Source: Candidatus Mediterraneibacter quadrami (GTDB lineage Bacteria > Bacillota > Clostridia > Lachnospirales > Lachnospiraceae). Taken from it: a DNA stretch of 44,237 bases. A program made the position numbers and the translations under genes. Shown here piece by piece: positions 18,394-36,843 of this stretch. The notes beneath the pieces are model-generated. The model had not been told where the DNA came from. It saw only the letters and a program-made list of their open reading frames with translations, and ran no database searches. The number at the start of each line of letters is the position of its first letter. The stretch's first letter is position 1. The DNA is taken from NCBI GenBank assembly GCA_019120575.1, contig DWUU01000061.1, positions 1-44,237 on the forward strand. Reading direction: 5' to 3'.

Positions 18394-21660
<3,267 letters not shown>

Positions 21661-33171: not shown

Positions 33172-33186
33172 GAGAGGAGTTTGGAG

Positions 33187-34653
33187 ATGAAGCGACCGAA
33201 TATATTGTTTGTCCTGACGGATGATCAGGGGGCGTGGGCAATGCGCTGCGCCGGGAATACAGATATTTATACGCCGAATCTGGATCGGCTGGCAAAACAG
33301 GGAACGAGATTTGACAATTTTTTCTGTGCGTCTCCGGTATGCAGCCCGGCAAGGGCGTCCATACTGACGGGACGTATTCCCTCACGTCACGGAGTCCACG
33401 ACTGGATCCGCTGCGGAAGTCTTGATAAGGATGCACTCGGGGAATATAAAGACCACCCGTATTTCGCCAATGAAGACAAGCCGGTCCGCTATCTGGAAGG
33501 TATGACAGCGTACACGGATCTGCTTGCGTACAACGGATACTGCTGCGCCCTTTCAGGCAAATGGCATCTTGGCGACAGTATGAGCCCGCAGCACGGATTT
33601 ACGGACTGGTTTACAATCGGCAGAGGCGGCTGCCTTTATATGGAGCCGGATGTGATCGAGAACGGTGAACTCAGGATAGAGAATCGTTATATTACAGATT
33701 TAATAACGCAGCATGCACTGGAAAATATTGATAAATATTCGGAGCGGTATAAGGATTCAGATCAGCCGTTTTATATAAGTGTGCATTATACGGCGCCCCA
33801 CGACCCGTGGGATGCAGATCAGCATCCGGCAGAGTATGTAGAGATGTACCGTGACTGCCAGTGTACGGCGACTCCGGACGAACCGCTCCATCCTAACCGT
33901 ATCCCTACGGCTCCGGGAGGAACAGGCGAGGAGAGAAAACGTCTTCTGCGGGGATATTATGCTGCGGTGACGGCGATGGATGCAGGCGTAGGCAGGCTTC
34001 TTGACCGTCTGGAAGAGCTGGGGATCGCGGATGATACACTGGTGATCTTTACCGCTGACAACGGCATGAATATGGGACATCACGGCATCTGGGGAAAAGG
34101 CAACGGAACGTTTCCGTTCAATCTGTTCGATACGGCTGTCAAGGTTCCGTTCATTGCCCGCTGGAAAGGCGTGATTCCTGAAGACAGGGTAACGGAGAGT
34201 ATGTGCAGCCATTACGATATCATCCAGACACTGAAAGATCTGCTCAAGCTTGACGGTGACCTTCCGGAGGGACTGCCGGGCAGGAGTTTTGCTCCTGTGC
34301 TGACCGGAGCATCGGACACGGATAATCATGTTGTTATCCTGGATGAGTATGGATCAAGCAGGATGATCCGCAACCGTGAATGGAAGTATATCCATCGTTA
34401 TCCGTATGGCCCGGATGAACTTTATCATTTGTCGGAAGATCCGGAAGAGAAAGAGAATCTGATCGGACTTCCGGAATATGAAGAAATCCGGTGCGGGCTG
34501 TTTGACCGGCTGCAGAAGTGGTACATGAAATATGCGGATCCGGCTGTGGACGGCTCAAGAGAAGCCGTGACCGGAATGGGGCAGCTGCGCCGTCCGGGTG
34601 TATATTCCGAAGGCAGGCAGGTGTATGCTGAAACAGCAAAATATCAGAAATAA
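33187..34653 (+). CDS. Cys-type sulfatase, cytoplasmic (S1 family)
   Basis: Removes a sulfate ester from a sugar; 488 residues. The N-terminal metal site is NILFVLTDDQG. The maturation motif is CSPARASILTGRIPSRHG, with Cys52 to be converted to formylglycine by the anSME at 23860. Further active-site parts are SGKWHLGD, VHYTAPHDPW, FTADNGMNMGHHG. Near the end YIHRYPYGPDELYHLSEDPEE is the common S1 C-terminal block. No signal peptide: unlike many gut sulfatases it appears to act inside the cell on imported sulfated oligosaccharide. GAGGAG precedes the ATG. Substrate position (6- or 3-sulfated Gal, 6-sulfated GlcNAc) cannot be read from this. Confidence 0.94.
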   Translation: MKRPNILFVLTDDQGAWAMRCAGNTDIYTPNLDRLAKQGTRFDNFFCASPVCSPARASILTGRIPSRHGVHDWIRCGSLDKDALGEYKDHPYFANEDKPVRYLEGMTAYTDLLAYNGYCCALSGKWHLGDSMSPQHGFTDWFTIGRGGCLYMEPDVIENGELRIENRYITDLITQHALENIDKYSERYKDSDQPFYISVHYTAPHDPWDADQHPAEYVEMYRDCQCTATPDEPLHPNRIPTAPGGTGEERKRLLRGYYAAVTAMDAGVGRLLDRLEELGIADDTLVIFTADNGMNMGHHGIWGKGNGTFPFNLFDTAVKVPFIARWKGVIPEDRVTESMCSHYDIIQTLKDLLKLDGDLPEGLPGRSFAPVLTGASDTDNHVVILDEYGSSRMIRNREWKYIHRYPYGPDELYHLSEDPEEKENLIGLPEYEEIRCGLFDRLQKWYMKYADPAVDGSREAVTGMGQLRRPGVYSEGRQVYAETAKYQK

Positions 34654-34690
34654 CAAACGTTGATTTGATAAAGCAGAATGAAGAAGGAAC

Positions 34691-34740
34691 CGCGCGGTTT
34701 TGTATTTGATCCCTTTGACGGGGGACGACAGAACCGCGCG
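34691..34740 (+). other. Hairpin in the region after the sulfatase gene
   Basis: CGCGCGGTTTTGT (34691-34703) and ACAGAACCGCGCG (34728-34740) pair over 13 positions with one G-T pair. There is no T-run on the 3' side. The 34654-34868 gap holds no gene; it holds this hairpin and the promoter at 34822. Confidence 0.5.
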
Positions 34741-34821
34741 AAGTGCGTTTCGGGAGAAAGTGTTCCGGCTGCGTGTGCCGGATCGTACAGACAGACGGTA
34801 TGAAAATATGAGAAAACAATA

Positions 34822-34850
34822 TTGATTTCGCCGGCGTCATGTACTAAGAT
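34822..34850 (+). promoter_or_regulatory. Promoter of the ATPase-sbcC gene cluster
   Basis: TTGATT (34822-34827), 17 bases, TAAGAT (34845-34850). The mobile element at 34869 would begin about 12 bases after the start of transcription, so it lies wholly in the mRNA leader of the gene at 35140. Confidence 0.5.
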
Positions 34851-34868
34851 GTGAGTCAGGTATGAGTT

Positions 34869-35069
34869 TAGCGTCAGTGTACAAGGGGACAATACGGTCG
34901 CTGAAGGGCTGATTTGGGCTCCTTCTGCGTTACTTTCCCTCCGCGTACGTTTCTGTACGCGTTGATCAAGTGCCTTGAAGGGGTCCAAATCAGCACCTTC
35001 ACGACTCGAAGACTCCAATCGCCGAAATTACGCGGCTTGGAGCGTGTTGCCCCTTGTACACTGACGCTA
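34869..35069. mobile_element. 201-bp MITE-like element with 20-bp terminal inverted repeats
   Basis: TAGCGTCAGTGTACAAGGGG (34869-34888) and its exact complement (35050-35069) bound the element. GAGTT stands on both sides (34864-34868 and 35070-35074), a five-base target duplication. It encodes no protein. Inside, a second inverted pair (34896-34917 with 34985-35005, including GCTGATTTGG/CCAAATCAGC), a central hairpin CGCGTAC...GTACGCG (34942-34961) and a third stem CTCCAA...TTGGAG (35013-35042) let nearly the whole element fold. A deleted relative lies at 18479. The partner transposase is not in the window; the family is not one I recognise. Confidence 0.8.
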
Positions 35070-35139
35070 GAGTTTGTGAGGACAAACGAAGAGAAATATC
35101 AGATTCCGACTGTGAGGCCGGAAGAAGGGAGACATCACT

Positions 35140-36843
35140 ATGCAGTCATCAACAGAACTTAGAAGCCTGTTAAACAGGATCGACCACCGGGGGTATCCGG
35201 CATATAAAGATACAAAGGGCGCTTACCAGTTCCCAGGCTATATATTGTCTATCGACCATGTGCAGGGAGACCCTTTCGCTTCACCATCAAAGGTGAGCGT
35301 ACGCGTGGCCGGGCGCACCGCGGGATTCCCGCAGGAACTTTATGGAGGAGACCATCAGAGGATTGCTCTGCAGGATGAGCTGACGAGGCAGTTCGGCAGA
35401 CGGGCGGAGCAGTTCGCATTTAAGGCGAAAGGATCCGGGAAGAGCGGACTTATCTCGGTGAGCCGCTGCGGGCAGGAAGTGCTGGAGCGGACGGCCTGCC
35501 GGATCGATCCAAAGAGCGGGGATGTGGTGCTCCGCATGGAGATCGGATTCCCGGCTAACGGGCGGACTATCAATGCGCGGGAGCTGGAGAAGATCCTCTT
35601 TGACTTCGTACCGGAATGCGTGAAGCACGCGCTGTTCTATAAAAATATGGACGCGAAGCGGCTGCGCGCCATCGTTGACCTGGCGGAGGATCAGCATTTC
35701 ATCCGGGAAATGCTGCCGAAGCTCGGGCTGTGCGCGTTCGTGGCGGACGGGAGCACCCTGCCCCGGGAGTCCGGCATTTCCGCACGCCCCATGAAAGGCG
35801 GCGTGGTGTTCCGGTCGCCCGATGAACTGAAAGTAGAACTGGACCTGCCCCACCGGGGGAAGATCACCGGCATGGGCATCCGCAGGGGGATCACCCTGAT
35901 CGTGGGCGGCGGATACCACGGGAAATCCACCCTTCTTAAAGCGCTGGAACTGGGCGTGTACGACCATATCGCCGGGGACGGCCGGGAGTATGTGATCACG
36001 GACGATACGGCCATGAAGATCCGGGCCGAGGACGGGCGCAGCATCCGGAAGACCGACATTTCCATGTTCATCAATGATCTGCCGAACGGGAAGGATACGG
36101 TGAAATTCTGTACGGAGGACGCCAGCGGCAGCACGTCCCAGGCGGCCAATGTGGTGGAGAGCATCGAGGCCGGGGCGTCCCTCCTGCTGATCGATGAGGA
36201 TACGAGCGCCACCAACTTTATGATTCGGGATGAGCTTATGCAGCGGGTGATCCACCGGGATATGGAGCCGATTACGCCGTTCATCGACCGGATCCGGGAA
36301 CTGTATGAAAATTACGGCATTTCCACGGTGATCGTGGCCGGCAGTTCGGGGTCTTATTTCCACATCGCGGATACGATCATCCAGATGGACTGGTATGTGC
36401 CGAAGGACATTACGGCTTATGCGAAGAAGGAGGCGGAGAACTTCCCCATGATCAGCGCGCCGGAGGAGCCGGCGGCGAAGCCGGATCTCGGCCGTCGGCC
36501 GCAGCCGGACAAGGCGTTCAGGGGCAATGACCGGATCAAGATGAAGACGCTCGGAAAAGAAGGTGTGATGATCAACCGGGAGACCATCGATCTGCGGTAT
36601 GTGGAGCAGATCACGGACAGCGAGCAGGCGACGGCGCTCGGGTACTGCGTGCGGTATGCACAGAAGCATCTTCTGGACGGAAGGAAGGACCTGCGGCAGA
36701 TCGTGGCGGAGCTGCAGGAGGCGATTGAAAAAGGAACCCTTGCGGCGCTCTGCGAGAGCGCTTCGAGCATCGCCTGCATGGCCAGGCCGAGACGGCAGGA
36801 GATGTTCGCCTGCTTTAACCGCTGCAGGAGCCTGAAGCTGTAG
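35140..36843 (+). CDS. ABC-class ATPase domain protein
   Basis: Soluble protein of 567 residues, recognised as the 'predicted ATPase of the ABC class' family (PF09818-like). The N-terminal ~240 residues are a family-specific domain (YPAYKDTKGAYQFPGYIL near 20-37). The ATPase core has Walker A GGGYHGKSTLL (256-266, Lys262) and Walker B LLLIDEDTSATNF with D352-E353. An ABC signature of LSGG type is not obvious; CTEDASGSTSQAAN may take that place. No membrane segments, so not a transporter. A distant eukaryotic relative acts on RNA, but the bacterial role is unknown. GAAGGGAGA precedes the ATG. It heads ATPase-editing protein-sbcD-sbcC, so a nucleic-acid role is reasonable. Confidence 0.85.
   Translation: MQSSTELRSLLNRIDHRGYPAYKDTKGAYQFPGYILSIDHVQGDPFASPSKVSVRVAGRTAGFPQELYGGDHQRIALQDELTRQFGRRAEQFAFKAKGSGKSGLISVSRCGQEVLERTACRIDPKSGDVVLRMEIGFPANGRTINARELEKILFDFVPECVKHALFYKNMDAKRLRAIVDLAEDQHFIREMLPKLGLCAFVADGSTLPRESGISARPMKGGVVFRSPDELKVELDLPHRGKITGMGIRRGITLIVGGGYHGKSTLLKALELGVYDHIAGDGREYVITDDTAMKIRAEDGRSIRKTDISMFINDLPNGKDTVKFCTEDASGSTSQAANVVESIEAGASLLLIDEDTSATNFMIRDELMQRVIHRDMEPITPFIDRIRELYENYGISTVIVAGSSGSYFHIADTIIQMDWYVPKDITAYAKKEAENFPMISAPEEPAAKPDLGRRPQPDKAFRGNDRIKMKTLGKEGVMINRETIDLRYVEQITDSEQATALGYCVRYAQKHLLDGRKDLRQIVAELQEAIEKGTLAALCESASSIACMARPRRQEMFACFNRCRSLKL

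Follow-up and report, generated by a model that had tools for sequence, protein, structure and literature searches.

A small mobile element of 201 bp lies in the window (the whole stretch of 44,237 nucleotides analysed), and comparison of its copies indicates that it belongs, as an internal deletion form, to a TA-target MITE family whose full-length copies measure 275–284 bp. The family is dispersed over many loci, has empty sites in related genomes and deletion forms, and carries covarying hairpin arms whose core recurs under other ends. We consider it fairly probable, somewhat better than an even chance, that the element is a non-autonomous MITE served in trans by a transposase of the IS630/Tc1-mariner class, with its arms acting as DNA hairpins. 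The features of the window are listed below.

34869–35069, unstranded: MITE copy (inverted repeats and empty sites)
34869–34888, + strand: left terminal inverted repeat, TAGCGTCAGTGTACAAGGGG (repeat finder)
35050–35069, − strand: right terminal inverted repeat (repeat finder)
34864–34868, unstranded: GAGTT, pre-insertion host sequence (empty sites L217 and L218)
35070–35074, unstranded: GAGTT, pre-insertion host sequence (empty sites L217 and L218)
34891–35009, + strand: complete left hairpin arm (covariance model R1, E 3.4e-28)
34919–34984, + strand: conserved hairpin core, internal loop and apical stem (covariance model R2, E 5.3e-17)
35012–35042, − strand: right-arm remnant (alignment to L034, L017 and L003)
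18479–18526, unstranded: second copy of the family, 48-bp form, terminal repeats only (copy search; empty allele in G026)
35140–36843, + strand: ABC-class ATPase gene, downstream context (PF09818, E 4.6e-123)

The element is located between a sulfatase-type gene (33181–34653) and the ATPase gene, and its length includes a TA at each end, one TA being the duplicated target. The terminal inverted repeats are 20 bp long and perfect, as an earlier reading made from the sequence only had described, and are spaced by 161 nt; the ATPase gene start that it placed at 35140 is supported by the PF09818 match. In short form, the window-type ends read TAGCGTCRGTGTACARGGGG. As is typical of a MITE, the element is short, has no transposase gene and ends in perfect terminal repeats, and ORFs of 82 aa (+) and 124 aa (−) in the mechanical ORF list overlap it. 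The minimum free energy of the fold of 34864–35074 was −126.1 kcal/mol on the + strand (shuffle mean −64.4, z −14.5) and −112.7 kcal/mol on the − strand (z −12.3), and 0/200 shuffles folded as well on either strand. The sequence-only reading had also claimed three inner inverted pairs. The branched shape agrees with the predicted fold, which gives an apical hairpin and a right-hand stem besides the inner pair; the repeat finder itself returned one further pair (34897–34925 with 34977–35005, 76% complementary). Alignment to the 278–279-bp copies L034, L017 and L003 showed that approximately 78 bp of the right arm are missing in the window copy.

Empty alleles were sought in 58 genomes with the joined flanks of 11 sites as queries. 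Sixteen site-genome pairs were aligned, of which 15 cross the join and cover 8 sites; G019C7/L232 aligned on one side only, and the C53 and C36 sites had no aligned empty allele. The flanks of the window site are approximately 99% identical in G043 and G025, and the empty alleles of both genomes contain GAGTTTAGAGTT. GAGTT at 34864–34868 and again at 35070–35074 had been taken for a target duplication, with empty sites expected to lack one copy. Its presence on both flanks stands; since the empty alleles read GAGTT-TA-GAGTT, both copies predate the insertion and only TA was duplicated. A 5-bp duplication is thus ruled out by the empty sites, and equal 5-bp flanks were found in 1/101 paired copies, namely the window copy. 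G026, a more distant genome, also has the window site empty, with TG in place of TA.

Exactly one TA was present in at least one empty allele at 5/8 sites (window 34869, C11, C10, C58 and G025C39). Both empty alleles of C10 have a single TA, those of C11 have TA and CA, and that of C58 has a single TA beside a one-base flank difference. At window 18479–18526, the G026 empty allele (L230) is compatible with TA, its flanks differing by other gaps as well. Non-TA empty alleles only were found at 2/8 sites (TC in four alleles of G031C47 and CA in G025C35). Over the eight sites (5 exact, 1 compatible, 2 non-TA), duplication of TA and nothing else is the pattern of IS630/Tc1-mariner elements. A or T occupied target position −4 in 88/101 copies and +4 in 79/101, as raw counts with no background control. 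In L006 (C11 of the window's assembly, G000), the insertion at junction 1488 is at a flank TAG; the element begins with TAG, and a stop codon could be kept.

Other copies of the family occur in G000 as 279-bp forms on contigs C58 and C53 and as short forms on C11, C36 (another at C36:35514) and C10 and at 18479–18526 of the window. The last has an AraC-type regulator on one side and lies upstream of a beta-galactosidase-like gene on the other; a Candidatus Mediterraneibacter guildfordensis record (L096) carries the same 48-bp copy, and the copy is absent from this site in G026. The 102 paired copies, de-duplicated by the sequence of copy and flanks so that some doubles near contig ends may remain, fell into sizes of 31–86 bp (n = 51), 152–238 bp (n = 12) and 275–284 bp (n = 39). 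Long and short forms shared an orthologous site in three cases: 279 bp in L020 and 47 bp in L007, 278 bp in L151 and 46 bp in L161, and 228 bp in L073 and 50 bp in L101. These alleles indicate that at least some short forms arose by internal deletion. One-ended copies were common among the loci. Several draft contigs break off 131 bases into the element, in G042 (C14, C15), G031 (C27, C78) and G221 (C29, C30).

The family was detected in 18/99 genomes and in 17/58 genomes of the genus, and its end pattern in 12/397 genomes of the family Lachnospiraceae (reversed pattern 0), with G000 included in each count. Its distribution is patchy, and the named records among the matches listed (at least 117 stretches) include Mediterraneibacter, Blautia, Claveliimonas and Merdisoma. 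The end pattern had no match in viral contigs, and a 279-nt query had none in plasmids and phages. The dispersed copies, the empty sites and the 2-bp duplication bear out the proposal that the element is a MITE.

The alignment of the full-length form used 38/39 copies, L154 (284 bp) being excluded. The consensus contains 93 pairs, of which 41 show a double compensatory change in at least one sequence. The left arm is homologous to the reversed right arm, so the full-length layout is end, arm, inverted arm, end. Covariance model R1, which represents one arm, was built from 22/38 copies (44 arms) and matched 11/12 chosen genomes. The arms listed for these 12 genomes either abut or stand single, and none were seen around a gene. 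Across 48 R1 matches (47 distinct), 92.8% of cells were paired vs 34–44% in slid controls, and 30/35 pairs had double changes. The internal loop is mismatched in the full-length copies. E-values of R1 and of the core model R2 are rough; at E 0.001 per genome, approximately 0.3 chance genomes are expected per 300.

R2 is a 65-nt covariance model of the core, trained on relatives found with R1. In the order it matched 28/295 genomes, from eight families, and in the phylum 17/299 (G000 included in both), with up to 17 matches per genome. Divergent matches belong to other two-armed elements with the terminal repeats TACCCTCTCTTTACAAG, TACCCTCAGTTGACAAG, TACCCTCAGTGTACAAG and TACCCAAAGCGAACACT, and to single-armed elements of approximately 160 bp with TAGTGTGCTGTATC, TAGTGCACTGACAC, TATAGCAATTCCAG and more. 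Searched by blastn with a typed query for the core, 72,556 plasmids gave 10 records, all from Streptomyces (best E 5e-6); the five checked with R2 matched at E 1.4e-8 to 2.6e-10. The core of one Streptomyces plasmid, used as the query, returned 31 records, again all Streptomyces. The core pattern had no match in viral contigs, nor had the core query in phages or, by blastn at E 0.01, in 20,395 E. coli records. Around 1501–1565 of L434–L438, Streptomyces plasmids carry palindromic elements of roughly 160–190 bp with the same core.

The core set A5 comprised 53 aligned cores from 43 loci, chosen among the hits. Its stems covary, with 88.5% of cells paired (slid controls 24–52%) and double changes in 13/14 pairs; at the foot of the apical stem, two pairs fit poorly. 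Information per column was 1.21 bits in the internal loop, 1.06 in the apical part and 0.56 in the outer stem, the loop value being inflated because both the models and the query behind these hits favour loop sequence.

The recurrence of the core under different ends hints at a shared helper. We tentatively suggest, with confidence a little short of even, that a cellular factor, itself conserved, recognises one DNA hairpin module, in which a conserved internal loop (about GCGTTGTCGTCAnTC ... CTCnnTCCTCCGCCTTG) lies between stems free to covary. Such recognition would explain why the module was acquired by, or retained in, MITEs whose ends are unrelated and whose transposases probably differ, in both Bacillota and Actinomycetota. 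The window element would then be a derived two-armed form.

We favour a core that is a DNA hairpin aiding transposition. The MITE inserts into a TA dinucleotide and duplicates TA only. A DDE transposase provided in trans, of the IS630/Tc1-mariner class, would recognise the terminal repeats and move the element by cut and paste. In the full-length MITE, the two inverted homologous arms, each with a conserved internal loop between covarying stems, would form DNA hairpins, either extruded or on single-stranded DNA during replication. These hairpins would bind a conserved host or element factor, by which the MITE may become a good substrate for transposition. The window copy, or the copy from which it came, has lost most of its right arm.

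An RNA role of the arms is unlikely, but it has several points in its favour. The arms would be transcribed from leaders or intergenic sites and alter mRNA stability or expression, as in ERIC and Correia, for which such effects are published (available text of PMC2229807 and PMC10969869). The very stable fold on both strands and the compensatory changes in the arms agree with it, and co-directional copies often lie within approximately 100 bp of a gene end. In an RNA, G.U is expected to be better tolerated than A.C. Counted over all pairs of alignment A3, there were 101 G.U vs 50 A.C cells, and U.G is conserved at column pair 41/86 (35 cells), which may be a true conserved wobble. However, 68 of the 101 G.U cells fall in two nearly invariant column pairs, 41/86 and 6/124, which were set aside from the variable-stem count. 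G.U was not in excess in the variable arm stems, with 29 G.U vs 37 A.C cells on the core strand, and A5 had 11 vs 30. Core orientation, tallied for 34/53 entries, was even to co-directional genes (sense 7, antisense 6); the remainder were divergent (7), convergent (6), inside an ORF (7) or at an edge (1). As for the family, 24/102 copies lay 'inside' ORFs, an upper bound given a crude ORF caller that extends starts. The lack of a G.U excess in the variable stems and the even orientation lean mildly against an RNA role. Inverted arms would moreover give every transcript one sense and one antisense core. The Rfam scan of the window at gathering score gave 0 matches, and six loci scanned at E up to 1 gave only two, both far under their gathering scores.

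The DNA-hairpin reading with an IS630/Tc1-mariner-class transposase draws its enzyme from the target, since a TA target is typical of that class. For the 36/53 core matches whose terminal repeats are clear, the ends were scored against 88 ends from 36 IS630-type loci; these IS ends were chosen by an inverted-repeat threshold, and some may be chance. With the better of two ends as the observed value and one end only in the shuffles, six of 19 single-arm elements scored above all 200 shuffles each (15/18 for L371, L373 and L398; 14/18 for L381, L265 and L394), and the other 13 did not. Neither the window-type ends (L021, L041 and L049; 7–8/18) nor the other two-armed ends (8–10/18) rose above the shuffles, and the ends of the window element matched no IS630 family member compared. 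L265 (G213) has a single-arm core element at 2038–2198, nested in an IS630-type transposase gene with a similar end.

A full-length transposon with the same ends, which the sequence-only reading had proposed to look for, was not found among the end-pattern matches listed or the loci examined, the latter covering part of the transposase matches. The window's assembly (94% complete) had no PF13358 match. DDE_3 occurred in 6/58 genomes of the genus (all 27 matches examined) and in 38/397 of the family (30/52 examined), none of those examined having the window's ends. The R1 arm was absent from 56/57 DDE_3 loci; in L265 it belongs to the nested element. Among the matches listed from an exact-pattern end scan of the species genomes (at least 117 stretches), the pairs seen were of MITE size apart from two long ones, and lone ends also occurred. 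The long pair in L083 (976 bp) was judged chance, its far end having 4 mismatches, and that in L138 (3,976 bp) has one end that belongs to a short copy. Since the window ends lack an IS630 match and no transposase gene with those ends was found among the loci examined, we infer the class and do not file the element as a family member.

A mover of IS5-like or other type, rather than IS630-type, is rather unlikely. By eye, the core's Streptomyces relatives seem to end in IS5-like sequences (CTAG or TTA targets), so the core is not tied to IS630, and none of the IS630-type ends compared matched the window-type ends. Against such a mover stand the clean 2-bp TA duplication, the absence of PF13586 (a match in 0/18 MITE-bearing genomes), and PF01609, whose 45 matches in 14/18 of these genomes included 30 examined as loci, none with paired window ends.

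Quite improbable, in our view, is an origin of the compensatory changes without selection, by template switching that, at imperfect palindromes, rewrites one side of an arm from the other, the MITE being otherwise ordinary. Template-switch correction is known for quasi-palindromes, and it needs no function. However, the internal loop is equally exposed to such correction and is still mismatched in the full-length copies, and in the core set it is better conserved than the outer stem, a selection-biased comparison with an inflated loop value.

A conserved, immobile cis-regulatory leader of the ATPase gene can be practically dismissed: the position before the ATPase start agrees with it, but the element is absent in G043 and G025 despite their nearly identical flanks, as it is in G026, and the same family occupies many other loci. 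The 'good promoter' proposed at 34822, from which the element would be transcribed into the leader, is weak; a sigma-70 scan of 34640–35200 gave 0 sites at threshold, and the candidate (TTGATT-17-TAAGAT) fits 8/12 positions by eye.

REP/BIME elements are not known to have a target duplication or a terminal repeat stem, and membership in them was rejected for the window element, which has both a TA duplication and terminal repeats. Among TA-target elements, RUP of Streptococcus pneumoniae (107 bp) is the published parallel with an IS630 partner, and it is likewise small, multi-copy and bounded by terminal repeats (available text of PMC2229807). RUP has a proposed partner IS (IS630-Spn1), whereas no partner was found for the window family, which has two homologous inverted arms. 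ERIC/IRU of enterobacteria (127 bp) shares the TA termini and has long stem-loop transcripts, but its terminal repeats are 7 bp (same text), and the core had no match in the E. coli records. Correia/NEMIS of Neisseria resembles the family in its TA termini and size classes (24-bp terminal repeats; 107 and 155 bp; PMC2229807), but neither a two-arm design nor a common hairpin core appears in its descriptions in the available text of PMC2229807 and PMC10969869. CIR of Caulobacter and Brucella also has two arms, joined by a linker, but it has a conserved GANTC motif and no terminal inverted repeat in the available text of PMC2229807. The Lachnospiraceae IS630-type (DDE_3) elements have TA-flanked ends, which are similar in 6/19 single-arm core elements, but they carry a transposase and, with the L265 exception, lack the R1 arm. 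By analogy with RUP, ERIC and Correia, as far as the available text describes them (PMC2229807, PMC10969869), the window MITE would work like other small TA-target bacterial elements. The open-licence literature searched yielded no description of this MITE family, of the two-arm design or of the core under different ends; two papers that matched core strings appeared to deal with unrelated subjects.

Bacterial MITEs are usually viewed as remnants whose defining feature is the ends required by their transposase; in this family and its relatives, it is the middle that recurs. One hairpin core under many ends in two phyla, with compensatory evolution in its stems and sequence conservation in its loop, turns what a cell recognises in a MITE besides its ends into a testable question. 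The MITE repeats seem to break assemblies, and R1 and R2 are models with which such elements can be sought, including where an assembly is broken by them. A core-like hairpin lies near 145–211 of L397 (G080), in surroundings that resemble, by a sequence motif, the 3′ part of a 16S rRNA gene; it may be a real insertion or a matter of assembly.
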